From: Streptomyces zhihengii
GTDB lineage: Bacteria > Actinomycetota > Actinomycetes > Streptomycetales > Streptomycetaceae
Assembly (NCBI RefSeq): GCF_016919245.1
Contig: NZ_JAFEJA010000001.1
Location: forward strand, 3,382,001 to 3,446,000
Direction: 5' to 3'
DNA length: 64,000 bases
Shown: positions 3,234 through 28,129 of the stretch, piece after piece
How the letters are laid out: the number at the start of each line of letters is the position of its first letter
How positions within the stretch are numbered: position 1 is the first letter of the stretch
Position numbers and translations under genes: made by a program
The notes under the pieces: generated by a model
Told to the model about the DNA's origin: nothing
Seen by the model: the letters and a program-made list of their open reading frames with translations, nothing else
The model's database searches: none

Positions 3234-3235
3234 CG

Positions 3236-3269: not shown

Positions 3270-3276
3270 CCCCGTG

Positions 3277-3738
3277 TCAGCGCAGGTAGACCTTGGGCCC
3301 GAGCTCCATCGGCCGTTCACCGGACGAGCACTCGCCACCCCACTTCGCGCTGTTGATCCGGGTGGTCGCGGGGAAGTTCGTCCACGAGCCCGAGGTGAGC
3401 CCGGAGGCGTTCTCGTCGAAGTGGAGGCAGCCCTTCACCGAGCGGTAGGTGCCGTCCCCGTAGTTGACCCAGCCCGCGTACCGGATGTGGTCGGCGCCCA
3501 CGTCCTGCATCCCGTTGTTCAGCATCGACCGGACGTCGCCGGAGGTGCCGGACCAGGTGCCGGCCGTCCTCTTGTCGATGCCGTCGGTGAGGTTCGTGCC
3601 GTTGAACGCGCAGACGTAGCCCGGCGCGCACCCGTTGTGCGTGTCGTCCCCGGCGTGTGCCGTCCCCGCGACCGCGAACACGGCCCCCAACGCCGCGGTG
3701 ACCGCGACTGCCCCGGCTCGGCGCATGCGTGACCTCAT
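3277..3738 (-). CDS. Secreted peptidase-inhibitor I36-like protein
   Basis: 153 residues with a clear signal peptide: MRSRMRRAGAVAVTAALG, a hydrophobic core, then cleavage near TAHA-GDD around residue 31. The mature part has CAPGYVCAFNG near its start, SMLNNGMQ in the middle and a late Cys pair, the pattern of the actinobacterial I36/SMI metalloprotease-inhibitor fold. The start at 3738 is preferred over 3750 because the GGGGGAA before it is a good ribosome site. Its fold matches the outer domain of the kinase encoded just upstream on the other strand, so the two may share a ligand (inference). Inhibitor activity itself is not shown by the sequence. Confidence 0.8.
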   Translation of the reverse strand: MRSRMRRAGAVAVTAALGAVFAVAGTAHAGDDTHNGCAPGYVCAFNGTNLTDGIDKRTAGTWSGTSGDVRSMLNNGMQDVGADHIRYAGWVNYGDGTYRSVKGCLHFDENASGLTSGSWTNFPATTRINSAKWGGECSSGERPMELGPKVYLR

Positions 3739-3843
3739 GGTTTCCCCCATCGAATGGTGTCGGGGCGATCTGCCCGAGGACGACGCTAGGGAGGAGGCGC
3801 GGCGCACGGCACCTCGTACGAACGAGGTTGACGCCGACGGGGG

Positions 3844-3886
3844 CGCCCCTCCCTCCGCCGGGCGAGGACCGGCGGAGGGAGGGGCG
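3844..3886. terminator. Terminator of the purN-purH operon
   Basis: A perfect 17-bp inverted repeat (3844-3860 with 3870-3886) with a 9-nt loop, beginning 8 nt beyond the purH stop on the minus strand. Confidence 0.85.
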
Positions 3887-3893
3887 ACGGCCG

Positions 3894-5459
3894 TCAGTGG
3901 AAGAAGTGGCGCGTGCCCGTGAGGTACATCGTCACGCCCGCCTTCGCGGCGGCCTCGGCGACCAGTTCGTCGCGGACCGAACCGCCCGGCTGCACCACGG
4001 CCTTGACGCCGGCGGCCGTCAGGATCTCCAGACCGTCGGGGAAGGGGAAGAACGCGTCCGACGCGGCGTAGGAACCGCGGGCGCGCTCCTCGCCCGCGCG
4101 CTCCACGGCCAGCTTGGCCGAGTCGACGCGGTTGACCTGGCCCATGCCGACGCCGACCGAGGCGCCGTCCTTGGCCAGCAGGATCGCGTTGGACTTGACC
4201 GCGCGGCACGCCTTCCAGGCGAAGGCCAGCTCGGCGAGCTCCTCGGCCGTGAGCGCCTCGCCCGTGGCCAGCGTCCAGTTCGCCGGGTCGTCGCCGTCGG
4301 CCTGGAGGCGGTCGGTGACCTGGAGCAGCGCGCCGCCGTCGATCGGCTTGAGCTCGACCGGGGCCGTCGGGGCGCCCTCGGCGCGCAGCACCCGGATGTT
4401 CTTCTTCTTGGCCAGCACCTCGACCGCGCCGTCCTCGTAGCCGGGCGCGACGATGACCTCGGTGAAGATCTCGGCGACCTGCTCGGCCATGGCGACGGAC
4501 ACCGGGCGGTTGACGGCGATCACGCCGCCGAACGCGGAGAGCGGGTCGCAGGCGTGCGCCTTGCGGTGCGCCTCGGCGACGTCGGCGCCGATCGCGATGC
4601 CGCACGGGTTGGCGTGCTTGATGATCGCGACGCACGGCTCGGCGTGGTCGTACGCGGCCCGGCGCGCGGCGTCGGTGTCCGTGTAGTTGTTGTAGGACAT
4701 CTCCTTGCCGTGGAGCTGCTCGGCCCGCGCGAGGCCGCCCGTGCCCGAGGTGTAGAGCGCGGCGGGCTGGTGCGGGTTCTCGCCGTAGCGCAGGACGTTC
4801 TCGCGCTCCCAGGTGGCGCCCAGGAAGTCGGGGAAGCCGCTCTCGTCGGCCGCCGCGTAGGAGGACGCGAACCAGGAGGCCACGGCCACGTCGTACGCGG
4901 CGGTGTGCTGGAACGCCTCGGCGGCGAGCCGCTTGCGGGCGGACAGGTCGAAGCCGCCCCCGCGGACGGCCGCGAGCACGTCCGTGTACCGGGCGGGGCT
5001 GGTGACGACCGCCACGGACGGGTGGTTCTTGGCGGCGGCGCGGACCATGGACGGGCCGCCGATGTCGATCTGCTCGACGCACTCGTCGTCGCTCGCGCCG
5101 GAGGCGACGGTCTCCTTGAACGGGTAGAGGTTCACGACCACCAGGTCGAACGGCTCCACGCCCAGCTCGGCGAGCTGCTCGCGGTGGGCGTCCAGCCGCA
5201 GGTCGGCGAGGATGCCGGCGTGCACACGGGGGTGGAGCGTCTTGACGCGGCCGTCCAGGCACTCGGGGAAGCCGGTCAGCTCCTCGACCTTGGTGACGGG
5301 GACGCCCGCGGCGGCGATCTTCGCGGCGGTGGAGCCGGTGGACACGAGCTCGACACCGGCCTCGTGCAGACCCCGGGCAAGCTCCTCGAGACCCGTCTTG
5401 TCGTAGACGCTGACCAGTGCGCGACGGATGGGCTTGTTACCCGACTTATTCACCGACAT
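3894..5459 (-). CDS. purH: PurH, AICAR transformylase / IMP cyclohydrolase
   Basis: 521 residues, normal length. It catalyses the last two steps of IMP synthesis in the cytoplasm: formylation of AICAR with 10-formyl-THF, then ring closure. The N-terminal cyclohydrolase half carries STGSTA and [12 protein letters not shown]; the C-terminal transformylase half carries [14 protein letters not shown], the IKHANPCG motif with its catalytic Lys-His, and a FFPFPDGLE segment before the C-terminus. The frame continues upstream of 5459, but that stretch is the antisense of purN; the real protein starts MSVNKSG at 5459, behind GAAAGG. The start lies inside the last codons of purN (14-bp overlap), so the two are translationally coupled. 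Confidence 0.97.
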
Positions 5460-6063
5460 GAACCTTTCGTCCCTCAATGCGGTAGCCGTGCCGGGCGAGA
5501 CGCCCCACGACCTCGACGAGCAGCGATCGCTCGACTTCCTTGATGCGCTCGTGGAGAGCGTCTTCGTCGTCCGTCTCCCGTACCTCGACCACGCCCTGGG
5601 CGATGATCGGGCCGGTGTCGACGCCGTCGTCGACGAGGTGGACGGTGCACCCGGTGACCTTCGCCCCGTACGCGAGCGCGTCCCGCACTCCGTGGGCACC
5701 GGGGAAACTGGGCAGCAGCGCGGGGTGGGTGTTGACGACCCGCCCGCCGAACCGCGCGAGGAATTCCTTCCCCACGATCTTCATGAAGCCGGCCGAGACC
5801 ACGAGGTCCGGCTCGTACGCGGCGGTCGCCTCGGTCAGGGCCGCGTCCCACTCGGCGCGGGACGCGAAGTCCTTGACCCGGCGGACGAACGTCGGCAGCC
5901 CGGCGCGCTCGGCGCGCTCCAGACCGGCGATTCCCGTCCGGTCCGCGCCGACGGCGACCACCTCGGCGCCGAACCCGTCGGGGTCGGCGGCGATCGCGTC
6001 GAGGAGGGCCTGGAGGTTCGTCCCCGATCCGGAGACCAGGACGACGAGGCGGGCGGCGGCCAC
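5446..6063 (-). CDS. purN: PurN, phosphoribosylglycinamide formyltransferase
   Basis: 205 residues, full length for the N10-formyl-THF-dependent enzyme that converts GAR to FGAR in purine synthesis. [16 protein letters not shown] is the phosphate-binding P-loop. [22 protein letters not shown] holds the catalytic Asn-His pair and folate loop, and [13 protein letters not shown] holds the catalytic Asp. The GTG at 6063 is preceded by an AAAAGAG purine stretch. It is the first gene of the purN-purH operon, which uses the formyl-folate made by FolD (start of the window). Confidence 0.95.
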
Positions 6064-6287
6064 AGGGGGACTCTTTTCGCGTTACGGTGCGGCTTTGTAG
6101 GGTCGTACGAACACTTCGCATCCCCGGATACGGGGAACTCTACGAAGGGGCCGACCGTCAGCAACGATACCGGCACACAGCCCGGCCCCCACGGGACGGG
6201 GGCGTGGCCGGAAGGTAGCGTCTGGGGACAGAGCCCGCGCCCGGGCGGGTTCGAAGCCGGGCTTGACGAGGGGAAGACGTTCACCAG

Positions 6288-7061
6288 ATGCCGGACCGAC
6301 GCCACCGTACGGACCTCCTGTTGCTGCGGGAGCGCCAGTCCACGGACGACGACAACCCGTTCGCGCCGCCGCCCGAGGGCAGGCCGGACCAGCCCTGGCA
6401 GCCCCGCCACCCGGCGGACGGCTCCTCCGGGGACCCTTCGTCCGGGGACCCGTCGAACTCCTCCGGCTCCGGCCGGGACGGCGACGGCTCGTCGCAGGGC
6501 GGCGGCCAGTGGAGCAGCCGCCAGCCCGGCCGCTCGTCGGGCGGCGGCTTCGGCCGCCCCGGCGGCCGCAAGGGCGACCAGAACGGCCCCGAGGGCGGCG
6601 GCTCCGGCGGCGGCCTGCGCTGGGACCCGACCGACCCCCTCCAGCGCCGCGCGCGGTACGCACTGCTGGGCGGCATGTGGGCGTTCTTCTTCGCGCTCTT
6701 CGACTTCCCCGAGATCGCGCTGCTGCTGGGCGCCCTCGCCGTCTACTGGGCCGTGAGCTCGCTGCGCGGCAAGCCGGTCGCCACGGCCGGGGACTCCGCG
6801 CAGGCGGCGGGGAACGCGCCCCGGCCCGCCGGGGCCCAGCCCGCGCAGCGGCAGTCGAGCCGCCCGCAGATCACCGCCGCGACGAGCGGCCTGGTGATGG
6901 CGGGCATCGCGCTGCTGATCGTGGCGGCCTCGTTCGCGGCGCAGCTCGTCTACCGCGACTACTACACGTGCGTGAACGACGCCCTGACCAAGTCCGGTCA
7001 GATGGCGTGCAACGACCTGCTCCCCGAGCCGCTGCGCGACGTCCTCGGCGTCCAGGAGTAG
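6288..7061 (+). CDS. Membrane protein with long disordered N-terminal tail
   Basis: 257 residues. Residues 1-120 are polar and low-complexity (Ser/Gly/Asp/Pro, with SSGDPSSGDPSNSSGSG-type repeats). Hydrophobic helices follow at about 125-152 (a likely hairpin) and 201-222. Basic residues come just before the first helix. The start at 6288 has a GAGGGGAAG 13 nt upstream, which is a little far. It is divergent from purN. No family is recognised; genes of this design sit beside purN in other streptomycetes as far as I recall. Confidence 0.7.
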   Translation: MPDRRHRTDLLLLRERQSTDDDNPFAPPPEGRPDQPWQPRHPADGSSGDPSSGDPSNSSGSGRDGDGSSQGGGQWSSRQPGRSSGGGFGRPGGRKGDQNGPEGGGSGGGLRWDPTDPLQRRARYALLGGMWAFFFALFDFPEIALLLGALAVYWAVSSLRGKPVATAGDSAQAAGNAPRPAGAQPAQRQSSRPQITAATSGLVMAGIALLIVAASFAAQLVYRDYYTCVNDALTKSGQMACNDLLPEPLRDVLGVQE

Positions 7062-7083
7062 CCCGCCCCGCACGCACCCGCTC

Positions 7084-7119
7084 GCGGCCCGGCCCCGGTA
7101 CTTCCGGGGACCGGGCCGC
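7084..7119 (+). terminator. Terminator after the 6288 membrane protein gene
   Basis: An inverted repeat of about 13 bp (7084-7096 with 7106-7119, one imperfect position) starts 22 nt after the stop. Confidence 0.65.
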
Positions 7120-7286
7120 AGGCATGTCGGGGCTGCCGCCGGGACCGGGCGGGGCCGGGCCGGCATGGGACGGGGGGCACGGGACGGGGGCGCGCGGGGC
7201 CGTGCGGGGCCGTGCGGCCTGGGGCGGGGGCGTGCGGGGGCGCGGAGGTGCGTGGCGCGCGGGGTGCGTGCGGGGGGCGGGGCCGG

Positions 7287-8933
7287 TCAGGAGGGGGGCG
7301 GGCTCGGGGGCGGCGGGTCGTCGTCGGAGCCCGCCGGCGGTGCGGCCGCGGGGGCGTCGTCCCCGGGCGGCTCCGGGACGGAGGGCGCGGCGGGGGCGTC
7401 GGCGCCGGAGGGCTCCGGGGCGGGGGGCGCGGCCGGCGGGGCGGGGGCCGGCGGGGTCGGGGACGTGCGGGCGGTCCAGGTCGCCGCGGGCAGGACGTCG
7501 TACAGCTCGAAGTCGTCCTCCAGGTCGAACACGTCCAGCGTCGTCACGGCGGACGGCGCCCCGCCGCCCGCCCCGGCCTCCGCGGCGCCGGCGTCCGCAC
7601 CGGCGCCTTCGCCCTCGTCGGCGCCGCGCTCCGCGCGCTCGCTCCGCGGCACCCGCACCCGCCAGGCCCGGATCCCCAGCGCCAGCGGGACGGCGAGCGC
7701 CGCCGTCCAGACCAGGGCGGCGGCCCCCACCCGCCACCACACCGGACCGAACTCGGCCAGCCGCCCCCCACCCAGCGGACCGCCCGCCGCCGCTGCCGCC
7801 ACGGCGGTGAACACCGCGCAGCCCGCCGCGCCGAGCAGCGCGGTCAGCGCCGTCCCGCCGCGCGACCAGGCGTCGTCCCGTTCGCCGTACCGGGGCGCCG
7901 CGGCACCGGCGGTACGCCAGGCGATCAGCACCGCGGCGGCCACCGGGACCGCCGCCCCCGCCCAGTGCACGGCCTCGCCCGGCCCGCGGCCCGGCAGGGC
8001 GGCGAGCAGCGGGAAGTCCGGCAGGGCGGGCCTTCCGGTCAGCGCGAACGGCGTCGCCGTCGCCCCCGTCCCGAGCGCGAACCCGGGCCCCAGCCCGTAC
8101 GCGGCACCCCACACCGCCGCGTTCGGCAGCAGCGCGAGGGCCAGCAGCACCACGGCGAGCCGGCCCGACCAGTCGCCCGCGAGGCCGGACAGCGACGCCT
8201 GCGCGGCGGGTCCGTGCCACACGAGCGAGGAGAGGACCAGCACCGCACCGCCGCCGATCAGCACGCACGTCGCCCAGGCGGCGGAGCGCAGCGCCACCGC
8301 GGCACGGGTGCGCGCGAGGGCCACCCGCAGGCGGCGGGGCAGCCCGGCGGGCAGCGGCCCGAACGGCCGGCCGTGCGCGCTCCACGCGCCGAACGCCGCC
8401 GCCCCGGACACCACGAGCGGCAGGTGCACCATCGCGCTCACCGGAAGCGCGGCGAACGGCCCGCCGGCGGCGTAGAGCACCACGGGCGCGGCGACCAGCA
8501 TGTAGCCGCTGGTCGTCGCGGCGAGGACGGCCGACACGGAGGGCGCGGGCCGCTCCTCGGCCTGCTCGCCCGTCCGCTCCAGCGCCTCGCGCGCCGCCCG
8601 GTGCGCGAGCCACACGGGCAGCGCGGTGAGCAGCAGCGGCACGACGCCCATCGGGGCGGGGACGGCCGACACCGTGTCCGCGCGGACGAGTTCGGCGCCG
8701 TGGGCGAGCAGCCAGGTCGCGGCCGCGACCCGGAGCGCGCCGCCGGAGCCGCTGTCCGGGTAGGGGGAGCTGATCCACAGCACCATCACCAGCACCGTGA
8801 CGGCCCCGAGTCCGAGCCCGGCGGCCGTCGCGCCCCGCACGAAGGCGCCCACCACGGCCCCGGACGCGCTTCCGTGGACGGCGGGGCGGTGTTCGGCGAC
8901 GGCGGCGGGGCTGGGGTCGGTCGTCTGGGTCAC
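7287..8933 (-). CDS. PerM-like polytopic membrane protein (DUF6350 type)
   Basis: 548 residues. About ten hydrophobic segments run from near residue 20 to 400, with alternating Ala/Leu/Gly/Val helices and short loops. The C-terminal ~120 residues are a disordered acidic tail of Ala, Pro, Glu and Asp, broken by a conserved-looking patch ([19 protein letters not shown]). The layout matches the actinobacterial DUF6350 family, which includes mycobacterial PerM, a protein needed for cell division under stress. The start is the GTG at 8933 (VTQTTDP), 9 nt after GGGAG; the frame reads further upstream into the promoter region. It is divergent from the regulator at 9050. A division or envelope role is inferred from the family. 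Confidence 0.75.
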
Positions 8934-13096: not shown

Positions 13097-14311
13097 TCAG
13101 GCGGTGGCCGGGACCGGGAGGGGACGCCTCTCGATCGCCGCCGCCATCACCTCGGGGAACAGGTCCGGTGTGCAGGCGAACGCCGGCGAGCCGAGGGCGG
13201 CCAGCGCCGCCGCGTGCTCCCGGTCGTAGGCGGGCGCCCCCTCGTCCGAGAGCGCCAGCAGCGTGACGAACCGCACGCCCGCCGCCTGCATGGCGGCCAC
13301 CCGCTTCAGCATCTCGTCGCGTATGCCCCCCTCGTAGAGGTCGCTGATCAGGACGACGACCGTGTCCGCGGGGCGGGTGATCCGCGACTGGCAGTAGGCG
13401 AGCGCCCGGTTGATGTCGGTCCCGCCGCCGAGCCGGGTGCCGAAGAGCACGTCGACGGGATCGTCCAGCTGGTCCGTCAGATCGGCGACGGCGGTGTCGA
13501 AGACGACCAGCCGGGTGGCGATGGAGCGCATCGAGGCGAGGACGGCGCCGAAGACGGAGGCATAGACGACGGAGGCCGCCATGGACCCCGACTGGTCGAT
13601 GCAGAGCACCACCTCCTTCTTCACCGACCGCGAGGCGCGTCCGTAGCCGATCAGCCGCTCGGGGACGACCGTGCGGTGCTCGGGGAGGTAGTTGCGGAGG
13701 TTCGCCCGGATGGTGCGGTCCCAGTCGATGTCGCGGTGACGGGGGCGGCCGATCCGCGCCGAGCGGTCCAGCGCCCCGGTCAGCGTGGACCGTGTGCGGG
13801 TGGCGAGCCGCTTCTCCAGCTCCCCGACGACCTTGCGGACCACGGCCCGGGCCGTCTCCTTCGTCGTCTCCGGCATCGCCTTGTTGAGGGAGAGCAGGGT
13901 GCCGACGAGGTGCACGTCCGCCTCGACGGCCTCCAGCATCTCGGGCTCCAGCAGGAGCGCGGAGAGGCCGAGCCGGTCGATCGCGTCGCGCTGCATCACC
14001 TGGACCACGGAGCTGGGGAAGTAGGTGCGGATGTCCCCCAGCCAGCGGGCCACCGAGGGCGCGGACGCGCCCAGGCCGGCCGATCTGCCGCCGCTCCTGC
14101 CCTGGCCGGCGGGGCGGGCGCCGTAGAGCGAGGCGAGCGCGCCGTCCATGGCGGCGTCCGTGCCGGCGAGGGCGACGCCCGTGCCGTCGGCGGCGTCGCC
14201 GCCGAGGACCAGGCGCCATCGCCGGAGCCGCTCGCCGTGCCCGTCCGGAGCCGCCCCCGCGGCACCGCCTGCCCCGGTCTCGGCCGCCGGGGCGGCCTCG
14301 TGCGTCGTCAT
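13097..14311 (-). CDS. CoxE-like VWA-domain protein of the MoxR module
   Basis: 404 residues. The first ~220 residues are helical with a conserved-looking ALYGARPAG-like region. The von Willebrand factor A domain follows, from VVLCIDQSGSMAAS (metal-ion site DxSxS at residues 239-243) through VVVFDTAVADLTDQL and GGGTDINRALAYCQ to TVVVLISDLYEGG. VWA proteins of this kind usually work with a MoxR AAA+ ATPase, as a substrate adaptor or chelatase-like partner. The ATG overlaps the stop of the DUF5682 gene by 4 bp. It is third and last in the operon and is followed by a terminator. Confidence 0.9.
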   Translation of the reverse strand: MTTHEAAPAAETGAGGAAGAAPDGHGERLRRWRLVLGGDAADGTGVALAGTDAAMDGALASLYGARPAGQGRSGGRSAGLGASAPSVARWLGDIRTYFPSSVVQVMQRDAIDRLGLSALLLEPEMLEAVEADVHLVGTLLSLNKAMPETTKETARAVVRKVVGELEKRLATRTRSTLTGALDRSARIGRPRHRDIDWDRTIRANLRNYLPEHRTVVPERLIGYGRASRSVKKEVVLCIDQSGSMAASVVYASVFGAVLASMRSIATRLVVFDTAVADLTDQLDDPVDVLFGTRLGGGTDINRALAYCQSRITRPADTVVVLISDLYEGGIRDEMLKRVAAMQAAGVRFVTLLALSDEGAPAYDREHAAALAALGSPAFACTPDLFPEVMAAAIERRPLPVPATA

Positions 14312-16875
14312 CGGCTCACTCCCGCGAAATCGTCATGGCGGCCTCCGCCGCCCCCGTCGGCACCGGACCGGGCGGCCCCGGTGAACCCAGCCGGCCCGGT
14401 GAACCCGGAGCCTCCAGCCGCAGGCCCGGTTGGCCTGGTGGGCGGGGCGGTCCCGGTGGCCCCGGTCGACCCGGCGCCCTCACCGCCTCCGCCGCCCCCG
14501 GCGGCACCCCCGGCGATGCCCAGCAGCAGACGCACCACCGGCAGGACCTCCTCGGCCCGCGACTCGTCGAGGCCGGGGCCGAAGCCGGGGGCCGCCGGTT
14601 CGGGGGGTGCTCCGCCCGGCGTGGCGGCGGGGCCCCGGCGCACCAGTTCGCCGAGGGTGCGGCGGACGCCCGGCTCGTAGGCGGAGAACGTGCGGCGCAG
14701 CAGGGGCAGCACGTCGGTGAAGGCGTGATCGGGCACGCCCGTCAGCCAGGCGTCCACCAAACCGAGCAGCCGCTCGTCGTGGACGAGCAGCAGCCCGCCG
14801 CCGGACTCGCCGCCGACGAAGCCCTCGATCCAGGCCGCCGCCTGCGCCGGCGGCACGGCGGGCGAGAGCGCGAGGCCCATCAGCCGGGCGGCCTCGTCCT
14901 CCGCGAGCTGCCCCTCGTCGAGCAGCAGCCTGGCCGCCCGGCCGCGCAGGACGCCGTGGACGGTGTCCCGTGCGGCGAGCCGGCGCAGGGCGTCGCGCCA
15001 GCGGGGCGCCGTGCCGGACGAACCGGGCAGCAGGGCGACCGCGGTGTGCACGCCGTCGATCAGGCCGCGCATCTCCGCGGCCGCGTCCGCGTCGAGCCCG
15101 GTGCAGGCGGGGGGCAGGCCGATGCAGATCCGCTCCGCGAGACCGGCCGCCACCTCGCCGAGCGCCTCGGTGTCCGTGGCGCGGACGTCCCCGTAGCGCA
15201 GGGAGCGGGCGAGGGCGGGCAGGGCCCGGGCGAGGTGGCCGACGTCGGTGTCGAGCGCCGCGCGGTCGGCCAGGGCGGCCATCACCACGGGCAGGGCGTC
15301 GGGCAGCGAGGCCAGCAGGCACTGCTCGGCCAGGGCGGTGACCTCGCCGAGCGATCCGGCGGACACCGCGCCGGACGTGGCCTTCGCCGTCGCGGCGGCG
15401 AGCACGGTGGTGCCCCACATGCCGGCCTCGGCCACCTTGACGTGCAGCTCGGGCTCCCAGCGCAGCCGCCAGGTCTCGCGGAAGGTGCCCGTGCTGCCCC
15501 GGCCGGCGGCGGGCTCGCCCCAGCCGACGGAGAGGAGTCGCAGCCGGTGCAGCAGCAGGCTCCGGCCCGCGTCGCCGTCCTTGCGCAGGTCGAGCTCCAG
15601 CTCCCGCTCCGCGGCCTCCGGCTTCAGCCGCAGGGCGCGCTGCTGCCGGGCGAGATCCCGCTGGAGGGGCACCGCGGGCGCGGCGTCGGGCACCTCGCCG
15701 AGCACGTCGCCCACGACGAGTGCGTCCCGCACCAGGTCGAGCGGCACGTCGGAGCCGTCGCACATCACCGCGCGCACCGCGTCGGTGGTCTCGCCGAGGC
15801 CGGCGAACGGGCGGCCCCGGACGACCGCGAGGGTCTCGGCGAGACGGACGGCCTCGATGACATGGGCGGGGGACACGGGCCGGTCCTCCTCGCGCAGCAG
15901 CCGCGCGACCTTCGTCATCCAGCGCTCGACCGGCCGGTCGGGAACCTCGAACAGGTGGCCGTACCAGCCGGGCGAGTCGATGCCCGCGCCGTATCCGGAG
16001 TACCGGGAGAGCCTGCGGTGCGTCCACGGCACCCAGGTGGTCTCCGTCCTGACCTTCGAAAGCCCCTTCAGCAGGGCCCGGTCGGCGGCGACCGTGCGGC
16101 GCTCGGCGAGGGCCGGGACGTGCCAGGCACCGCAGACGACGGCGACGCCGTCGCCGAACTCCTTGCGCGCGGCCCGCAGGGCGAGCCGCATGTGGGCCTC
16201 GCGGATCAGGTCCCGCTCGTGGCCGCCGTGTCCGTACGTCTCGCGCAGCGCGGTCATGGCCTCCGCGACGGCGGCGAAGGGGGCGAAGGCGTCGGCGGGG
16301 CCGTCGCCGCCGCGGTGCTCGACGACGTCCTCCCACCAGCGCTCCGGGTCGTCGTAGCCGGCGGCGTCGGCCAGCACCCCGATCGGGTCGATCCGCACCC
16401 CGGGACCGCCGGGACCGGGCACCGGCTCCCCGCCCTCACCGGCCTCCGGGGCGAGGCCCCTCGCACCGGCGTCCGGCTCCGGGCCGCCGCTCCCGGCCCC
16501 GGCGGCGGGGCCGTCGTCCCCGGCCGCGGGGGCCGGGCCGGCGCCGGACGGGTCCATGGCGAGGGAGTGCGCCGCGGGCAGGTCGATGAAGCGGACCGGT
16601 ACGCCGTGCGCCAGGGCCCAGCGGACGGCCACCCACTCCGGGCTGAAGGCGGCGAACGGCCAGAACGCCGAGCGCCCGGGGTCGTCCACGGCGTGGGCGA
16701 GCAGCGCCACCGGGGGCCGCATCCGCTCGTCGGCCGCCAGGTGCACCAGCCCGTCGCCCTCCGGGGGCCCCTCGATCAGCACCGCCGGGGGCCGCGCCGC
16801 GTCGAGGGCCGCGCCGACCGCCCGGGCGGAGCCGGGCCCGTGGTGGCGGACGCCGAGCAGGAGCGGGCCGCTCAT
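14308..16875 (-). CDS. DUF5682 family protein of the MoxR module
   Basis: 855 residues, large and probably cytosolic (no signal peptide or membrane segment). It opens with GVRHHGPGSARAV and VLIEGPPEGDGLV. This His- and Glu-containing pattern resembles the active-site starts of the ChaN/TraB/TIKI/erythromycin-esterase-like fold, which I suggest only tentatively. Residues ~110-165 are a Gly/Pro/Ala-rich insert. Further conserved-looking blocks are WVPWTHRRLSRYSGYGAGIDSPGWYGHLF and VMCDGSDVPLDLVRDALVVGDVLGEVP. The middle and C-terminal halves are helical, and the tail is a Gly-rich disordered segment. It overlaps both neighbours by 4 bp (ATGA), so moxR, this gene and VWA are made together. No biochemical function is known to me. 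Confidence 0.85.
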   Translation of the reverse strand: MSGPLLLGVRHHGPGSARAVGAALDAARPPAVLIEGPPEGDGLVHLAADERMRPPVALLAHAVDDPGRSAFWPFAAFSPEWVAVRWALAHGVPVRFIDLPAAHSLAMDPSGAGPAPAAGDDGPAAGAGSGGPEPDAGARGLAPEAGEGGEPVPGPGGPGVRIDPIGVLADAAGYDDPERWWEDVVEHRGGDGPADAFAPFAAVAEAMTALRETYGHGGHERDLIREAHMRLALRAARKEFGDGVAVVCGAWHVPALAERRTVAADRALLKGLSKVRTETTWVPWTHRRLSRYSGYGAGIDSPGWYGHLFEVPDRPVERWMTKVARLLREEDRPVSPAHVIEAVRLAETLAVVRGRPFAGLGETTDAVRAVMCDGSDVPLDLVRDALVVGDVLGEVPDAAPAVPLQRDLARQQRALRLKPEAAERELELDLRKDGDAGRSLLLHRLRLLSVGWGEPAAGRGSTGTFRETWRLRWEPELHVKVAEAGMWGTTVLAAATAKATSGAVSAGSLGEVTALAEQCLLASLPDALPVVMAALADRAALDTDVGHLARALPALARSLRYGDVRATDTEALGEVAAGLAERICIGLPPACTGLDADAAAEMRGLIDGVHTAVALLPGSSGTAPRWRDALRRLAARDTVHGVLRGRAARLLLDEGQLAEDEAARLMGLALSPAVPPAQAAAWIEGFVGGESGGGLLLVHDERLLGLVDAWLTGVPDHAFTDVLPLLRRTFSAYEPGVRRTLGELVRRGPAATPGGAPPEPAAPGFGPGLDESRAEEVLPVVRLLLGIAGGAAGGGGGGEGAGSTGATGTAPPTRPTGPAAGGSGFTGPAGFTGAARSGADGGGGGRHDDFAGVSR

Positions 16876-17984
16876 GCGCTCACCTCGCGGCAGGCGCGGT
16901 AGAAGTCCTTCCAGCCGTCCCGCTCGCGCACCACGGTCTCCAGGTACTCCTGCCAGATCACCCGGTCGGCCGCGGGGTCGCGGACGACCGCGCCGAGGAT
17001 CCCGGCCGCCACGTCCTGGGGGCGCAGCACGCCGTCGCCGAAGTGCGCGGCGAGCGCGAGGCCGCCGGTGACGACGGAGATCGCCTCGGCCGTGGAGAGC
17101 GTGCCCGACGGGGACTTGAGCTTGGTGCGCCCGTCGGCGGACATCCCGTCACGCAGCTCCCGGAAGACGGTGACGACCCGGCGGATCTCCTCCAGGCCCT
17201 CGGGCACGGCCGGCAGGTCGAGCGAGCGCCCGAGCTGGTCCACCCGGCGGGCGACGATGTCGACCTCGGCGTCGGAGGTGGCGGGCAGCGGCAGGACCAC
17301 CGTGTTGAAACGCCTGCGCAGCGCGCTGGAGAGGTCGTTGACCCCGCGGTCGCGGTCGTTGGCCGTGGCGATCAGGTTGAACCCGCGGACGGCCTGGACC
17401 TCCTGGCCCAGCTCGGGCACCGGCAGCGTCTTCTCGGACAGGATGGTGATCAGGGTGTCCTGGACGTCGGCGGGGATGCGGGTCAGCTCCTCGACGCGTG
17501 CGGTCATGCCCTCCGACATGGCGCGCATCACGGGACTGGGCACGAGGGCGTCGCGGCTGGGGCCGTGGGCGAGGAGCTGCGCGTAGTTCCACCCGTAGCG
17601 GACGGCCTCCTCCGGGGTGCCCGCCGTGCCCTGCACCAGCAGTGTCGAGTCGCCGCTGACGGCGGCGGCCAGGTGCTCCGACACCCAGGTCTTGGCCGTG
17701 CCGGGCACACCGAGGAGCAGCAGGGCCCGGTCGGTCGCCAGGGTGGTGACCGCGACCTCGACGATCCTGCGCGGGCCGACGTACTTCGGGGTGACGAGGG
17801 TGCCGTCGGCGAGCGTCCCGCCGAGCAGATAGGTGGCGACCGCCCAGGGCGAGAGCCGCCAGTTGACCGGGCGCGGGCGGTCGTCGTGCGCGGCGAGCGC
17901 GGCGAGTTCGGCGGCGAAGGCGTCCTCCGCGTGCGGCCTCAGGGCCTCGGCGGAGCTGGTGGCGGCGGTAGCGGGCACGGTCAT
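16872..17984 (-). CDS. MoxR-family AAA+ ATPase
   Basis: 370 residues. Walker A is GVPGTAKT at residues 92-99. The region corresponding to Walker B reads VEELTRIPADVQDTLITILSEK, with Glu-Glu where Asp-Glu is common, and sensor 1 is FNLIATANDRD followed by the arginine-finger segment SSALRRRFN. These are hallmarks of the MoxR/RavA branch, whose members act as chaperone-like remodelers together with VWA proteins. The start at 17984 follows GGAGGGGG. It is the first gene of the three-gene operon with DUF5682 and VWA. Confidence 0.92.
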   Translation of the reverse strand: MTVPATAATSSAEALRPHAEDAFAAELAALAAHDDRPRPVNWRLSPWAVATYLLGGTLADGTLVTPKYVGPRRIVEVAVTTLATDRALLLLGVPGTAKTWVSEHLAAAVSGDSTLLVQGTAGTPEEAVRYGWNYAQLLAHGPSRDALVPSPVMRAMSEGMTARVEELTRIPADVQDTLITILSEKTLPVPELGQEVQAVRGFNLIATANDRDRGVNDLSSALRRRFNTVVLPLPATSDAEVDIVARRVDQLGRSLDLPAVPEGLEEIRRVVTVFRELRDGMSADGRTKLKSPSGTLSTAEAISVVTGGLALAAHFGDGVLRPQDVAAGILGAVVRDPAADRVIWQEYLETVVRERDGWKDFYRACREVSA

Positions 17985-18055
17985 GGTTCCCCCTCCAGAT
18001 CGTTCGACCCGTTGTGGGACCACCGTGCACCACGCCACTGACAACGGGGCGTTGC

Positions 18056-18085
18056 CGCAGGTCACCGCCGTGGCGGCGACCTGCG
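18056..18085 (-). terminator. Terminator after the MmpS-like gene
   Basis: A stem of about 14 bp with one mismatch (18056-18069 with 18072-18085) and a very tight loop, downstream of the minus-strand gene ending at 18117 and before moxR. Confidence 0.55.
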
Positions 18086-18116
18086 ACGGGGAGTTGGGGC
18101 GGGGCGTCGGGGGCGG

Positions 18117-18533
18117 TTACTGCTCGCTGCCGACGGGCGATTCGCCGATACAGCCGCCGGCGGTCATCAGCCCTTCCCCGGACTCCTCGGCGAGCACCTT
18201 GCCCTTGTGGGTGATCTTGCAGGTGACCTTCGCGCCCGTGAGGTCGGCGGCGGCCGGGATGACGCCCGACGGCATGATGCCGCGCAGGGTGACCGTCTTC
18301 GTCCAGGGCAGCTCGGGCTTGTCGACCGTGGTGACGGACGGTTCGAGGGCCTTGCCCCCGCCGTCGTGGTAGCTGATCGAGTCGACGTTGTCGCCCGTGA
18401 CCTCGTAGGTGACCTCGTAGGTGTCGTTGACCGCCTTGTCGACCGTGTCCACGGCCTCGGAACAGGCGGTGGCGCCGAGGGCGAGACCCGCCGCGGCGAC
18501 GGCGCCGCAGACGGAGCGGGCGAAACGGTTCAT
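18117..18533 (-). CDS. MmpS-family lipoprotein
   Basis: 138 residues. It begins MNRFARSVCGAVAAAG and has a lipobox-like LGATAC around Cys 26, so it is probably lipid-anchored outside the membrane. The mature part (TYEVTYEVTG ... SISYHDGGGK ... LPWTKTVTLRG ... VTCKITHKGKVLAE) is the beta-rich MmpS / transport-accessory pattern. In mycobacteria such proteins accompany MmpL transporters; no MmpL gene is near. The start at 18533 follows GAGG. It interrupts the MoxR module physically but shows no functional link to it. Confidence 0.85.
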   Translation of the reverse strand: MNRFARSVCGAVAAAGLALGATACSEAVDTVDKAVNDTYEVTYEVTGDNVDSISYHDGGGKALEPSVTTVDKPELPWTKTVTLRGIMPSGVIPAAADLTGAKVTCKITHKGKVLAEESGEGLMTAGGCIGESPVGSEQ

Positions 18534-18657
18534 ACGTGACCTCGGTTCTCGAGTCGTCGATACGTCCACTCAGTGTAAAGGGAAGGTAAAGACCGTTTCG
18601 CCACCAGGAGTTCGCAGGTCGGAGCGATTGTCAGTGGCGGGGCCTAGCGTCGTTCCC

Positions 18658-20025
18658 ATGCTGCGACTCGACGGGGACCCCGCGGACACGGGGGAGCGCT
18701 GGACACCGGAACAGGTGCTGTCACTGGCACCTGACGACGCGTCACGCAAGGCGGGGGCCCGGCTCTCCACCGCCGGGCCGTGGTCGGCCACGGGCTCGGA
18801 CGGCGCGGGGGCGGTCTGGGGGCTGTGCAAGGGCAGCGGCGGCAGCCCGTACCGGACGGTCGTGGATCTCACCGGGCCCGCGTACACGTGCAGTTGCCCG
18901 AGCCGGAAGTTCCCCTGCAAGCACGCCCTGGGGCTGCTCCTGCTGTGGTCCCGGGACAGCACGGCGGCGGGCGGCGCCGCCGTCCCCGACTGGGCGGCCC
19001 CGTGGCTGACCGCCCGGCGCGAGCGCGCCGCCGCCGGACGGCCGGCGGCACGGACCGGCGCGGCCCGGGCGGGCGGGGACACGGAGGCGGCCAGGAAGCG
19101 GGCCGAGCGCAGGGCCGCGCGGATCACCGCGGGCGCCACCGAACTGGAGCAGCGGCTCGCCGATCTGCTCCGCGGCGGCCTCGCCGCGGCCGGCCGCTCC
19201 GGGTACGGGCTGTGGGAGGAGACGGCCGCCCGGATGGTCGACGCGCAGGCCCCCGGCCTCGCCTCCCGGGTGAGGGAGCTCGGCGCCGTCCCGGGGTCGG
19301 GTGCGGGCTGGCCGCCGCGGCTGCTGGAGGAATGCGCGCTCCTCCATCTCCTGGACACCGCGTGGCTCGGCCGCGACCGGCTGCCCGAGCCGCTGGCCGT
19401 CACCGTGCGCACCAGGGTGGGCCTCCCCTCGGTCGCCGACGGCGCCACCGTCCGCGACCACTGGCTGATCCTGTCGCAGGACGACACCTCCGACGGCAGG
19501 CTCATCACCCGCCGCATCTGGCTGCACGGCCGCGACACCGGGCGCAGCGCCCTGCTGCTGTCGTTCGGCGCCGCCGGACGCAGCCCGCAACTGGCGCTCC
19601 CGGTGGGCCTGATGGCACAGGCCGACGTCACCTCCCACGGCGGCGCCGGACAGCTCCGGGCGGAGATCGGCGACCTGCTGAGCGTGCCGGTGCCGATCGA
19701 CGCGCCGCCGAAGGGCACGGACTGCGCCGGCGCCACCGGGCTCTACGCCAGGGCGCTGCGCGACGACCCGTGGCTGGAGGCCCTGCCCGTCACCCTCTCC
19801 GGCGTCGTCCCCGTCCCGGCCGGCGACGGCTGGCAGCTCGCCGACGCCGACGGCGACGACGCGCTGCCCGTCGCTCCCGCCGTGGTGTCACGGCCGGGGC
19901 TGTGGCGGCTCGTCGCCCTCGCGGGCGGGCGGCCCGTCACCGTCTTCGGCGAGTTCGGCCACCAGGGCTTCGTGCCGCTGACGGCCTGGTCCGACGATCC
20001 GTCCGAGACGGTCCCGCTGATCTGA
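18658..20025 (+). CDS. SWIM zinc-finger protein of the MoxR module
   Basis: 455 residues. The SWIM finger is CSCPSRKFPCKH, ligands Cys78, Cys80, Cys87 and His89 (CxC-x6-CxH), a fold that binds nucleic acid or protein. The rest is mixed helix and strand without other known domains. The start ATG at 18658 has no Shine-Dalgarno sequence. TAGCGT at 18645-18650 ends 7 nt before it, so the mRNA is probably leaderless. The gene is followed 11 nt later by the DUF5691 gene with a strong AAGGAGG. The pair points away from the moxR operon, forming the right half of the module. Confidence 0.9.
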   Translation: MLRLDGDPADTGERWTPEQVLSLAPDDASRKAGARLSTAGPWSATGSDGAGAVWGLCKGSGGSPYRTVVDLTGPAYTCSCPSRKFPCKHALGLLLLWSRDSTAAGGAAVPDWAAPWLTARRERAAAGRPAARTGAARAGGDTEAARKRAERRAARITAGATELEQRLADLLRGGLAAAGRSGYGLWEETAARMVDAQAPGLASRVRELGAVPGSGAGWPPRLLEECALLHLLDTAWLGRDRLPEPLAVTVRTRVGLPSVADGATVRDHWLILSQDDTSDGRLITRRIWLHGRDTGRSALLLSFGAAGRSPQLALPVGLMAQADVTSHGGAGQLRAEIGDLLSVPVPIDAPPKGTDCAGATGLYARALRDDPWLEALPVTLSGVVPVPAGDGWQLADADGDDALPVAPAVVSRPGLWRLVALAGGRPVTVFGEFGHQGFVPLTAWSDDPSETVPLI

Positions 20026-20036
20026 AGGAGGCCGCG

Positions 20037-21659
20037 ATGACCACCCGCACCCACCCCTCCGGCACGGCGACGCCGTGGGAGGAGCTCGTCACCTCCGCCC
20101 TGCTCGGCACCGACCGGCGGCCCCCGTCCCCGGAGTCGGTGCCGCCCGGCAAGGAGCCGCCCCTCGCGCTGCTCGACGCCGCGGCCGTGGAGACGCTGCG
20201 CCGCCGGGCCGGCCTGCGGCCCGCAGCCGCCCCGGCGGACCGGCCCGCCGCGGCGCCGCACGATCCCCGTCCGGAGCCGCCCGCGGCGGCCCGGCGCAGA
20301 CTCGCCCAGTTGCTGGCCGACCGCGCGGGCGCGGCGGGCGCGGGCGGCCGCCGGGGCACCGCCCCCGACCTCACCGAGCTGCTCCCCCAGTGGCTGGCCG
20401 CGGCCGGCGAGCGCGGCTACCGGGCCCCGGCCCCCGCGCTGCCCGCCCTGCTGGACGCCGCCCGCGCCCGTACCGACCTGAGGCCCCTGGCCCTCGCCTT
20501 CGCCGGCCCGCGCGGCCTGTGGCTCGCCCGGCTCAACCCGGAGTGGAGGTTCGCGCTGCGCGGCGGCTCCGGGAGCACCGCCGTGCCGTCCCCGGACGAC
20601 GGCACCGCGGTACGGCGCCTGTGGGAGGAGGGGCTGTTCGCCGAGCGGGTGGCGCTGCTCTCCGCGCTGCGGGCCCATGACGCGGAGTCCGCCCGCGCCC
20701 TGCTCGCCTCCACCTGGCCGACGGAACGGGCGGAGGACCGGCTGATGTTCCTCGACTCCCTGCGCACGGGTCTGACCGGTGCCGACGAGCCCTTCCTGGA
20801 GCAGGCCCTGGCCGACCGCAGCCGCAACGTCCGCGCGACGGCGGCCGAATTGCTGTCCGCGCTCCCCCGGTCCGCGCTCGCCGCGCGGATGGCCGCCCGC
20901 GCCGCCACCTGCGTCGCACTCGACCACAGCGGCGGCGCAGGTCCGGTGATCGCGGTCGAGGCGCCCCACGAGTGCGACGCCCTGATGCAGCGCGACGGGG
21001 TCGTGCCCACCGCCCCGTCGGGGCGCGGCGAGCGGTCCTGGTGGTTCGGCCAGCTCGTGGAGGCCGCGCCGCTGTCCACCTGGCCGGCCCGCCTCGGCGG
21101 GCGCAGCCCCCACGACATCGTGGCGCTGCCCGTCTCGGACGACTGGGCCGACGAACTGCACGCCGCCTGGTGCAGGGCCGCCGTGCGCCAGCACGACGCC
21201 CCGTGGTCCCGGGCCCTGCTCGGATCGCCCTCGGCCCCGCCGTCGACCGGCCCCGGCACCACGTCCCCGGCCGAGCGCTCGAAGCTCCTCGCGACCCTGC
21301 CCGACGCGGAACGGGCGTGCTGGGTGGCCGATTTCATCGCCGCGCACGGCCTGTCGGAGGCCTTCCAGCTGCTCGGCGTCTGCGCGGTGCCCTGGGCGGA
21401 GCCGCTGGGCAGGGCCGTCGTCGACGCCCTGGACATCGCCCGGGACGCCGGCAGCTACCCGTGGAGCTTCAGCGGGGTGATGGGCCTCGCGGAACGCTGC
21501 CTCGACCCCTCGGAGGCCGCCCGCCTGGAGATACTCACCGCGACCCCCGACGAGCCGGAGGACGCCTCACCGGGAGCGGGCGGCTACTGGTCCGAGGCGT
21601 TCCAGCGCCTCGTCTCCACCCTCCGCCTGCGCGCCACCATGCACGCGGAACTCGCCTGA
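20037..21659 (+). CDS. DUF5691 family protein of the MoxR module
   Basis: 540 residues. It opens TPWEELVTSALLGTDRRPP, which is typical of this family of unknown function. It is rich in Ala, Arg and Leu, helical, with segments suggestive of HEAT-like repeats (for example FLEQALADRSRNVRATAAELLSALP near residue 255). No catalytic motif or membrane segment is evident. The AAGGAGG at 20025-20031 and the 11-nt gap mean it is cotranscribed with the SWIM gene. The last codons form the first copy of a 29-bp tandem repeat. In other actinobacteria and in cyanobacteria this family travels with SWIM, MoxR and VWA genes as far as I recall. Confidence 0.85.
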   Translation: MTTRTHPSGTATPWEELVTSALLGTDRRPPSPESVPPGKEPPLALLDAAAVETLRRRAGLRPAAAPADRPAAAPHDPRPEPPAAARRRLAQLLADRAGAAGAGGRRGTAPDLTELLPQWLAAAGERGYRAPAPALPALLDAARARTDLRPLALAFAGPRGLWLARLNPEWRFALRGGSGSTAVPSPDDGTAVRRLWEEGLFAERVALLSALRAHDAESARALLASTWPTERAEDRLMFLDSLRTGLTGADEPFLEQALADRSRNVRATAAELLSALPRSALAARMAARAATCVALDHSGGAGPVIAVEAPHECDALMQRDGVVPTAPSGRGERSWWFGQLVEAAPLSTWPARLGGRSPHDIVALPVSDDWADELHAAWCRAAVRQHDAPWSRALLGSPSAPPSTGPGTTSPAERSKLLATLPDAERACWVADFIAAHGLSEAFQLLGVCAVPWAEPLGRAVVDALDIARDAGSYPWSFSGVMGLAERCLDPSEAARLEILTATPDEPEDASPGAGGYWSEAFQRLVSTLRLRATMHAELA

Positions 21660-25510: not shown

Positions 25511-27961
25511 TCAGAGCTTCTCGACCGGCGCGTACCGCAGCAGCAGCCTCTTCGGCTTCTCGTCGCCGAAGTCGATCGTCGCCTGGGCCTCCGAGCCGGA
25601 GCCCGTCACGCCCACGACCGTCCCGAGACCGAACTGGTCATGGGTGACCCGGTCCCCCACCGACAGGGCGATCACGGGCTTGTCGTTGGTGCGCCGGGTC
25701 GCGAAGCCGGACGCCCCCGCGCGGGAGCGGGACGACGACAGCGACGAGGTGATCCCGGACGTCGGCCCGGCGGGCGCGGCCATGGGGCCGGTGCGCCGCC
25801 AGTCCAGGTGCGCGACCGGGATCTCCTCCAGGAAGCGCGACGGCGGGTTGTACGAGGGCTGCCCCCAGGCGCTGCGCATCGACGAACGCGTCAGGTACAG
25901 GCGCTCCCGGGCCCGGGTGATGCCCACGTACGCCAGCCGGCGCTCCTCCTCCAGCTCCTTGGTCTGGCCCAGCGCCCGCATGTGCGGGAAGACGCCGTCC
26001 TCCATGCCGGTCAGGAAGACCACCGGGAACTCCAGCCCCTTCGCGGTGTGCAGGGTCATCAGCGTGATGACGCCGGTGCCCTCCGCCTCGTCGTCGGGGA
26101 TCTGGTCGGAGTCCGCCACCAGCGCGACCTGCTCCAGGAACTCCGCCAGCGTGCCGGCGCCCTCCTCCTCGGAGCGGTCCTGCTCGAACTCCAGCGCCAC
26201 GGCCGCCAGTTCCTGGAGGTTCTCGATGCGCGTCTCGTCCTGCGGGTCGGTGGACGCCTGGAGTTCGGCGAGGTAGCCCGTCCGCTCCAGGACGGCCTCC
26301 AGCACGACGGCGGGACCGGCGCCGGACTCGGCGATGGTCCGCAGCTCCTCCATGAGCACGTTGAACCGCTTGACCGCGTTGGCCGACCGGGCGGCCATGC
26401 CGTAGGCCTCGTCGACCCGCTTGAGCGCCTGCGGGAAGGTGATCCGCTCACGCTGCGCCAGGGCGTCGACCATCGCCTCGGCCCGCTCGCCGATGCCGCG
26501 CTTGGGCACGTTGAGGATGCGGCGCAGCGGCACGTTGTCCTCGGGGTTGGCGAGCACCCGCAGATAGGCCAGCACGTCGCGGACCTCCTTGCGCTCGTAG
26601 AAGCGCACGCCGCCGACGACCTTGTAGGGCAGGCCGACGCGGATGAAGATCTCCTCGAAGACACGGGACTGCGCGTTCGTCCGGTAGAAGACGGCGACGT
26701 CCCCGGCGCGGGCGTCGCCCGCGTCCGTGAGCCGGTCGATCTCGTCGGCGACGAACTGCGCCTCGTCGTGCTCGGTGTCCGCGACGTAGCCGGTGATCCG
26801 GGCGCCCTCGCCCGCGTTGGTCCACAGGTTCTTCGGGCGGCGGGACTCGTTGCGCTCGATGACGGCGTTGGCGGCGGAGAGGATCGTCTGGGTGGAGCGG
26901 TAGTTCTGCTCCAGCAGGATCGTGGTCGCGTCCGGGTAGTCCTCCTCGAACTGGAGGATGTTGCGGATGGTCGCGCCGCGGAAGGCGTAGATCGACTGGT
27001 CGGCGTCGCCGACGACGCACAGCTCGGCCGGCCCCAGGTCCTCGTAGCCGGTGCCGACCAGCTCGCGCACGAGCGTGTACTGGGCGTGGTTGGTGTCCTG
27101 GTACTCGTCGACCATGACGTGCCGGAAGCGGCGGCGGTAGTGCTCGGCCACGTCGGGGAAGGCCTGGAGCAGGTGGACCGTCGTCATGATGATGTCGTCG
27201 AAGTCCAGCGCGTTGGCCTCGCGCAGCCGCGACTGGTACATCCGGTACGCCTCGGCCAGCGTCTTCTCGAAGCCGTCGGCCGCCTGGTCGGCGAAGGTCT
27301 CCTCGTCGATCAGCTCGTTCTTCAGGTTGGAGATCTTGGCGCTGAACGACTTCGGCGGGAACTTCTTCGGGTCGAGGTCCAGGTCGCGGCAGACCAGCGC
27401 CATCAGGCGCTTGGAGTCGGCGGCGTCGTAGATCGAGAACGACGAGGTGAAGCCGAGCCTCTTCGACTCGCGGCGCAGGATGCGCACACAGGCGCTGTGG
27501 AACGTCATGACCCACATGGCGTTCGCCCGGGGGCCGACGAGCTGCTCGACCCGCTCCTTCATCTCCCCGGCGGCCTTGTTGGTGAAGGTGATCGCCAGTA
27601 TCTGGCCGGGGTGGACGTGCCGGGTGCCCAGCAGATGGGCGATGCGGTGGGTCAGCACCCTGGTCTTGCCGGAGCCCGCGCCGGCGACGATGAGCAGCGG
27701 GGAGCCGGTGTGGACGACCGCGGCCGACTGCTGTTCGTTCAGCCCGTCGAGCAGGGCGGCCGGATCCGCCACGGGGCGCGGGTGGCCGTCGCGGTAGTAG
27801 CCCTCGCGGGCCGGGGGCACGTCGTAGCCGCCCTGGAAGAGGTCGTCCGGGATCGGCTCCGGTGCGTGCTCCTCGGGCGGCGGGGGCTGCTCCTCCTGGT
27901 GGGGCTCCCCCTCGGGGGACTGGAGGCCGGCCAGGAAGCTGTCGTCAAAGAGGCTGCTCAT
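25511..27961 (-). CDS. pcrA: PcrA/UvrD-type DNA helicase
   Basis: 816 residues, typical length. It is a superfamily 1A 3'-5' helicase for repair and clearing of replication blocks. Motif I is GAGSGKTRVL, Ia TFTNKAAGEMKER, II VDEYQDTN, III GDADQSIYAFRGA and IV QNYRSTQTI; motif VI is YVGITRARERLYL. The C-terminal ~45 residues (GDRVTHDQFGLGTVVGV) form the Tudor-like RNA-polymerase-binding tail. About 55 polar residues precede motif Q (LNEQQSAAV). ATG 27961 has TAGACT 9 nt upstream instead of a Shine-Dalgarno site, consistent with a leaderless mRNA. Confidence 0.96.
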   Translation of the reverse strand: MSSLFDDSFLAGLQSPEGEPHQEEQPPPPEEHAPEPIPDDLFQGGYDVPPAREGYYRDGHPRPVADPAALLDGLNEQQSAAVVHTGSPLLIVAGAGSGKTRVLTHRIAHLLGTRHVHPGQILAITFTNKAAGEMKERVEQLVGPRANAMWVMTFHSACVRILRRESKRLGFTSSFSIYDAADSKRLMALVCRDLDLDPKKFPPKSFSAKISNLKNELIDEETFADQAADGFEKTLAEAYRMYQSRLREANALDFDDIIMTTVHLLQAFPDVAEHYRRRFRHVMVDEYQDTNHAQYTLVRELVGTGYEDLGPAELCVVGDADQSIYAFRGATIRNILQFEEDYPDATTILLEQNYRSTQTILSAANAVIERNESRRPKNLWTNAGEGARITGYVADTEHDEAQFVADEIDRLTDAGDARAGDVAVFYRTNAQSRVFEEIFIRVGLPYKVVGGVRFYERKEVRDVLAYLRVLANPEDNVPLRRILNVPKRGIGERAEAMVDALAQRERITFPQALKRVDEAYGMAARSANAVKRFNVLMEELRTIAESGAGPAVVLEAVLERTGYLAELQASTDPQDETRIENLQELAAVALEFEQDRSEEEGAGTLAEFLEQVALVADSDQIPDDEAEGTGVITLMTLHTAKGLEFPVVFLTGMEDGVFPHMRALGQTKELEEERRLAYVGITRARERLYLTRSSMRSAWGQPSYNPPSRFLEEIPVAHLDWRRTGPMAAPAGPTSGITSSLSSSRSRAGASGFATRRTNDKPVIALSVGDRVTHDQFGLGTVVGVTGSGSEAQATIDFGDEKPKRLLLRYAPVEKL

Positions 27962-28129
27962 CGCCTACCGAGTCTAGGCGGCCCCACCGACACTCCGGGC
28001 CGCATCGGCGGACCCGCCCCCGGAGCAGGGGACGGGACACGGTGTGTGACCGGGCGGATCCGGGACGCCATCGCCGCGTCGCCGGTGAAGAAGGTCACGA
28101 AAATGTATCGGACATATCGAACATCAACC

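Follow-up and report, generated by a model that had tools for sequence, protein, structure and literature searches.

RavA-ViaA, CoxD-CoxE and NorQ-NorD each set an AAA+ ATPase of the MoxR type beside a VWA partner, and the same pairing lies at the core of the five-gene module (VWA, DUF5682, MoxR, SWIM zinc finger and DUF5691) that we describe here from a 64,000-nucleotide stretch of Streptomyces zhihengii (contig NZ_JAFEJA010000001.1; “the window” below means this whole stretch). The VWA protein of the module is CoxE-like, and we know of no DUF5682, SWIM or DUF5691 component in any of these three systems. Their clients, as we understand it and as set out in part in PMC3893208, are respiratory or metal enzymes. 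The MoxR-vWA (VMAP) ternary conflict systems likewise place a third partner on a MoxR-vWA core (Kaur et al., 2020; PMC7159879), and the main text of that paper contains neither “SWIM” nor “yeh.” The module differs from them in a MoxR protein that falls below the bpMoxR cut-off, in its constant synteny and in its DNA-damage promoter motif; no VMAP or effector-associated domain is named among the Pfam hits of the five proteins, the coverage of such domains by Pfam being unchecked.

The E. coli K-12 genes yehL-yehM-yehP-yehQ comprise the same four families as the core of the module in the same order (MoxR-DUF5682-VWA-SWIM), with identities to the window proteins of 39% for MoxR (YehL), 27% for DUF5682 (YehM) and 37% for VWA (YehP); on this pairwise identity to YehL, together with gene context, we call the window MoxR YehL-type. 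The E. coli system differs in that it has no DUF5691, carries DUF4132/WGR genes upstream and has a SWIM protein that is alike at the finger only. Its full layout is molR-yehI-yehL-yehM-yehP-yehQ, with molR preceding yehI (PMC10652928). In the open-licence PMC literature, within the text searched, we found no function for these four genes or for the YehL branch, no description of the module, no tie of it to DNA damage, and no mention of “DUF5682” or “DUF5691.”

Both operons of the Streptomyces module start at a RecA-NDp (PafBC-type) promoter motif, and we think it probable, by a modest measure, that the five genes act as one module encoding a damage-induced MoxR-VWA remodelling complex, in which DUF5682 is predicted to hydrolyse the target. 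This regulation is the main new result; neither the promoters, nor the E. coli yeh counterpart, nor the HEAT-like solenoids described below figured in the original prediction, which was made from the window sequence.

Gene content and layouts of the module

In the window, the VWA/DUF5682 and DUF5682/MoxR joins each overlap by 4 bp, and 11 nt separate SWIM from DUF5691; these spacings, and the five families named in the original prediction, were borne out by coordinates and Pfam matches. The gene set is not a chance assembly, since 20/20 other Streptomyces loci show the arrangement sucD-sucC-VWA-DUF5682-MoxR // SWIM-DUF5691; we picked these loci from 121 genomes on chromosome-sized contigs (the 18 fused-type loci below were picked likewise; sucC, sucD and uvrD were identified by eye from translations). 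DUF5682 occurs in 119/121 of these Streptomyces genomes (four of them by weak matches only, E above 1e-61) and in 19 of 246 genomes sampled across the actinobacteria, and among the best 120 matches listed for each of three module proteins, all relatives named by organism were Streptomyces. DUF5691 passed the cut-off in 17 of the 246 genomes, in all 17 with DUF5682 on the same contig at a distance of 1.2-3.3 kb; three more genomes held a DUF5691 match below the cut-off and no DUF5682.

A cross-phylum scan of named genomes gave 80 loci, which are the best YehM matches among at least 580 rather than a random draw, and 14 of these were excluded for too short a flank. The 66 with enough flank carried MoxR upstream in 66, VWA in 66, SWIM in 65, DUF4132 in 46 and DUF5691 in 18, where “upstream” for MoxR means 10-161 bp except at L139 (2,110 bp), the one locus without SWIM. 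Because of these counts, of the 17/17 pairing of DUF5691 with DUF5682 and of the gene fusions below, the five genes form one system as judged from genomic association. The proposal that they make up a single module, and the co-occurrence of SWIM-DUF5691 with moxR on which we checked it, stood up, and the co-directional operons elsewhere agree with it.

Three layouts were seen. In the window type, SWIM-DUF5691 lies ahead of MoxR-DUF5682-VWA, and this is where the pair is placed in the 18 cross-phylum loci with DUF5691. Outside Streptomyces the five genes of this type are co-directional, as one operon SWIM-DUF5691-MoxR-DUF5682-VWA, in Bacteroidota, Proteobacteria, Planctomycetota, Chloroflexota, an Acidobacteria metagenome-assembled genome (MAG), Cellulomonas and Rhodococcus, and for that reason the divergent Streptomyces arrangement looks like a split of the co-directional operon. 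The E. coli type has DUF4132 genes ahead of MoxR-DUF5682-VWA, and SWIM after it. A directly upstream DUF4132 (41/66 loci) and DUF5691 (18/66) were not seen together (two of the 18 carry DUF4132 elsewhere), and by position the DUF4132 (YehI-type) proteins stand in for SWIM-DUF5691 upstream of MoxR; DUF5691 itself as the counterpart of DUF4132 was ruled out by hhalign (0.2%). In the fused type, found on contig 2 of the S. zhihengii genome and in 18 other Streptomyces loci, MoxR is followed by a DUF5682::VWA fusion, and upstream lie a short DUF4132 gene and a protein of ~1,700 aa that is conserved in all 18 other loci. A SWIM::DUF5691 fusion was found in a Roseiflexus MAG, and the two kinds of fusion suggest that the fused proteins are physical partners.

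Some observations on these loci stand on their own. The ~1,700-aa protein (L003, about 2459-7657, S. zhihengii contig 2), which sits between DUF4132 and MoxR, gave no Pfam match. Streptomyces and relatives also have a distant class of DUF5682 (L030, L031 and L032), which reads VCHHSPASA...YLELCED. In L116 (Tsukamurella sp. PLM1), DUF4132, MoxR, DUF5682 and SWIM are apparently frame-split, by sequencing error or decay.

RecA-NDp motifs at the module promoters

We take the RecA-NDp pattern to be TTGTC(A/G)GTG-N8-TANNNT. In its TTGTCAGTG form, with up to two mismatches allowed, it has three matches in the 64-kb window against 0.3 expected: before SWIM (exact), before moxR (one mismatch) and before uvrD/pcrA (two). 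The SWIM site has a leaderless geometry (7 nt to the ATG) resembling that of ogt (6 nt). Both module sites are kept, at up to two mismatches, in all 20 other Streptomyces loci, the SWIM site being exact in 19 and one mismatch off in the other, and the moxR site carrying one mismatch in 17 and two in three. Across the 400 kb of these 20 loci, every one of the 37 sites that are exact or one mismatch off is a module promoter, and the 10 sites elsewhere all have two. Motif identity at the two module sites is 99.6% and 98.8% against flank identities of 60% and 51%; the ~99% is partly built in, the alignment rows having been found via the motif, and so we argue conservation from the fact that no locus has lost the sites and that the flanks differ.

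Across the 9.73-Mb genome there are 6 exact TTGTCAGTG-N8-TANNNT sites, the SWIM site among them, against 0 for a reversed-pattern control, and the A/G pattern with at most one mismatch gives 80 sites against 6 (a 13-fold excess). Eighteen of the A/G sites are exact; five of them stand before recA, uvrB, ogt, dnaX and rpsF-ssb (ssb recognised by eye from its translation) and one before SWIM. A family search covering 11 of the 18 downstream proteins found, among the others, an extracytoplasmic function (ECF) sigma factor, a transporter permease, a YjbR protein and a SUKH-4 protein, with two proteins lacking a match; some sites have no clear downstream gene. The motif of the module is thus the same as that at recA and uvrB of this genome, and because both divergent operons start at it we read the complex as probably damage-induced. 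SCO6735, an ultraviolet-inducible gene with a RecA-NDp promoter, is a precedent (PMC5087735), and the main text of a review of the PafBC pathway (PMC8223512) mentions neither “MoxR” nor “SWIM.”

The motif recurs in the other versions of the module. In the fused type it lies ~6 kb upstream of MoxR, at the start of the operon, in 18/19 loci (11 exact, seven with one mismatch), and at six Streptomyces loci with the E. coli layout it precedes the first DUF4132 profile hit by 190-630 nt (five exact, one with one mismatch), counted to where the hit begins instead of to an annotated gene start. Exact sites also occur at E. coli-type loci of Goodfellowiella, Spirillospora and an Actinoplanes.

In E. 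coli, molR is among the listed LexA-regulated genes (PMC11039860; PMC3978071), and in Deinococcus radiodurans an operon with a DUF4132 gene is reported to be strongly up on depletion of DdrO (PMC8533742). The E. coli deletion strain DGF-298 lacks molR-yehI to yehQ and beyond (PMC10652928); its viability without the region indicates that the system can be dispensed with under laboratory conditions, which would suit a stress system.

Apart from the module, a RecA-NDp-like site at 27971-27993 (minus strand; two mismatches, one with A/G) lies ~10 nt before uvrD/pcrA (25511-27961), and given this position uvrD/pcrA may share a damage promoter. Elsewhere in the genome, a SUKH-4 immunity-type gene directly follows an exact motif (L161, C1:1777986), and ogt and uvrB stand ~2.5 kb apart with an exact motif at each (L174 and L175, C1:6233463 and 6236005).

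The features of the locus are collected in Table 1. The most likely start of moxR is 17984, and that of SWIM is 18658, which gives 455 aa as in the database entry P0241 (the long-ORF start at 18421 was not taken). The PF05423 gene lying between the halves was seen by blastp in just 2/20 other Streptomyces loci, and we therefore place it outside the module.

Table 1. Module genes, promoter motifs and the intervening gene, in window positions.
Feature	Position	Strand	Details
VWA (CoxE-like) co-chaperone gene	13097..14311	-	404 aa; PF05762 (VWA_CoxE) 206.6 bits, E 4.3e-61
DUF5682 gene	14308..16875	-	855 aa; PF18934 993.6 bits, E 7.6e-299
MoxR AAA+ ATPase gene, YehL-type	16872..17984	-	370 aa; PF07728 (AAA_5) 127.5 bits, E 4.7e-37
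RecA-NDp-like promoter motif of moxR-DUF5682-VWA	18022..18044	-	1 mismatch (CACGGT at -10); moxR ATG 37 nt downstream
Small lipoprotein-like gene between module halves	18117..18569	-	PF05423
RecA-NDp promoter motif of SWIM-DUF5691	18628..18650	+	exact match; SWIM ATG 7 nt downstream
SWIM zinc-finger gene	18658..20025	+	455 aa; PF04434 28.1 bits, E 1.4e-6
DUF5691 gene	20037..21659	+	540 aa; PF18944 580.4 bits, E 6.6e-174

Predicted activities of the proteins

The DUF5682 protein divides into an N-terminal domain resembling the Tiki superfamily (residues ~1-300) and a C-terminal helical solenoid (~446-790). The Tiki superfamily comprises ChaN, TraB/PrgY/GumN, TIKI and erythromycin esterase, and Pfam describes ChaN as a member. 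R10, H11, E35, R225, E226, G249 and H252 are invariant in 91 rows, and G8 and H12 nearly so; the invariant set of the domain is H, E, R-E and G-x-x-H, and the domain has the motifs to which the original prediction had drawn attention. In hhalign the N-domain (1-300) matched ChaN at 80.7% (E 1.3e-5, 187 columns) with the GxxH, E and GxxH motifs in register; eight control alignments gave at most 1.9%, other parts of DUF5682 stayed at or below 6.3% with each of the ten alignments compared, and the ChaN and TraB profiles matched each other at 53.9%. By this profile comparison the N-domain groups with the Tiki superfamily as a ChaN-like domain and is a predicted hydrolase; DUF5682 differs from the known members in its added long solenoid and its place in a MoxR-VWA operon.

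The TraB and ChaN rows came from other genomes because each family was found in only 1/149 actinobacterial genomes, too few for the purpose; 26 of 30 TraB and 15 of 18 ChaN loci were used, long fused frames and partial matches being excluded. A first comparison gave 82% for TraB and 73% for ChaN, and at least one of its TraB rows was a wrong-frame translation; a motif and length filter then removed 4/26 TraB and 5/15 ChaN rows, which took TraB down to 15% and ChaN up to 81%, and its requirement for a GxxH-type motif favours the comparison. Weak Pfam hits among 16 DUF5682 members were to ChaN in three and TraB in one, all with E above 0.05. In the AlphaFold2 model of DUF5682 (pLDDT 84.8) the N-domain is alpha/beta and is joined by a long solenoid of helices, and the matches listed in the structure search are to the solenoid.

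In MoxR the Walker A, sensor 1 and arginine finger motifs are intact, and in VWA the MIDAS D-x-S-G-S-M is kept (74-row alignment). The SWIM finger C78-x-C80-x6-C87-x-H89 is invariant in 19 rows. The AlphaFold2 model of DUF5691 (pLDDT 84.9), with a comparison to the PDB, is a HEAT/ARM-like solenoid, and this solenoid and that of the DUF5682 C-terminus are predicted to be scaffolds. As separate observations, MoxR residues 163-168, read as Walker B, carry EE instead of the usual DE, conserved at 95% or more (78 rows) and unusual for an AAA+ ATPase; and the window MoxR is 46% identical to a second copy in its own genome.

Alternative readings, mechanism and meaning

Several results weigh against a damage-induced complex. 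The letters of the motif are those we presume it to have. The papers we cite name it, and print no letters in the excerpts available. The moxR site reads CANNNT instead of TANNNT, and the motif is absent at one of the 19 Streptomyces fused-type loci (L200). Beyond the genus the link to the promoter is patchy: 20/27 other actinobacterial loci of the E. coli type show no site within one mismatch (in eight of the 20 the operon start lies outside the stretch), and the eight window-type loci of other actinobacterial families comprise five with no site near SWIM, two with a two-mismatch site just before SWIM and one with a one-mismatch site ~1 kb before DUF5691, where no SWIM hit was found; a fused-type locus there likewise has none upstream. 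DUF5682 itself is missing from 227/246 sampled actinobacteria. The window SWIM, tried as a full-length relative of YehQ, aligned at the finger only (16%). While the ChaN half of the ChaN/TraB likeness raised in the original prediction is strong, the TraB half is weak, at 15.1% against the cleaned profile, and no solved Tiki structure appears among the matches listed in the whole-model structure searches, which are filled by the solenoid. In E. coli, a LexA box with one mismatch precedes yehF, which we take to be part of molR, and taken alone it is within background (6/100 shuffles reach the count); yehL lies 306 bp past yehK, so that its co-regulation with molR is conjectural, and 40 non-actinobacterial loci (39 besides E. 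coli) show scattered LexA hits and no shared box.

If the promoters were constitutive and resembled RecA-NDp by coincidence, the module could serve general protein quality control. The motif does consist of a promoter with -35/-10-like halves, and only 5/18 exact sites are followed by a gene or operon with an evident role in repair or replication; set against this are the 13-fold excess over the reversed control, the presence of the motif at both promoters in 20/20 loci and its recurrence in the fused and yeh-type versions, and we regard such a coincidence as very improbable. Closer to the original prediction was a conflict or self-killing system that damage would trigger and in which DUF5682 would be the effector, on the lines of the MoxR-vWA ternary systems. 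It has precedent in that pairs of MoxR and vWA are found repeatedly in predicted conflict systems (PMC7159879) and that some are CRISPR-linked (PMC10910872). PADLOC, however, matched 0/5 proteins, bpMoxR scored 22.6 bits, below the Pfam cut-off of 27, neither a variable sensor nor a variable effector was seen, and a gene set with constant synteny (20/20) and presence in 119/121 Streptomyces is not island-like; with the promoters pointing to a DNA-damage regulon, we have largely set this idea aside as highly doubtful.

A third possibility, which we consider unlikely though not negligibly so, is a maturation chaperone for one enzyme, in which MoxR-VWA would activate or insert a cofactor into a dedicated client, like CoxD-CoxE or NorQ-NorD, the damage induction then reflecting the role of that client. 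The CoxE-like VWA, the aid that known MoxR proteins give to enzyme maturation (PMC3893208) and the first description of molR in molybdate use all suit it. The constant partners in the searched profiles are instead a predicted hydrolase, SWIM and solenoids, and the operons showed no enzyme client, recurrent unnamed neighbours having been sought in the fused loci only.

For the damage-induced remodelling complex that we favour, we infer assembly, substrate, catalysis and induction as follows. DNA damage would switch on both operons via the RecA-NDp promoters; SWIM may recruit the complex to nucleic acid or a nucleoprotein; the target peptide would be gripped by VWA while ATP hydrolysis by MoxR would remodel the target; cleavage or de-esterification of the target would fall to the N-domain of DUF5682; and the DUF5682 and DUF5691 solenoids would hold the parts together.

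Eukaryotes carry out DNA-protein crosslink repair with SPRTN/p97, and an AAA+ ATPase, a predicted hydrolase, a DNA-directed finger and a link to damage invite an analogy, with no homology claimed. It is a speculative and rather unlikely extension that the module would be a bacterial damage-induced machine that strips proteins off damaged DNA, the functional equivalent of SPRTN with p97, in which SWIM or WGR-DUF4132 finds the nucleoprotein, MoxR-VWA pulls and the Tiki-type domain of DUF5682 cuts, and which would have been wired separately into the PafBC response in Streptomyces and, via molR, beside the LexA response in E. coli.

Many common MoxR-VWA systems are without a known job, and the YehL branch, to which four uncharacterised genes of E. 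coli K-12 belong, now gains a DNA-damage hypothesis together with a predicted catalytic subunit whose candidate residues can be named (H11, E35 and H252). If the hypothesis is true, a protein-remodelling machine would join the damage response across distant phyla.

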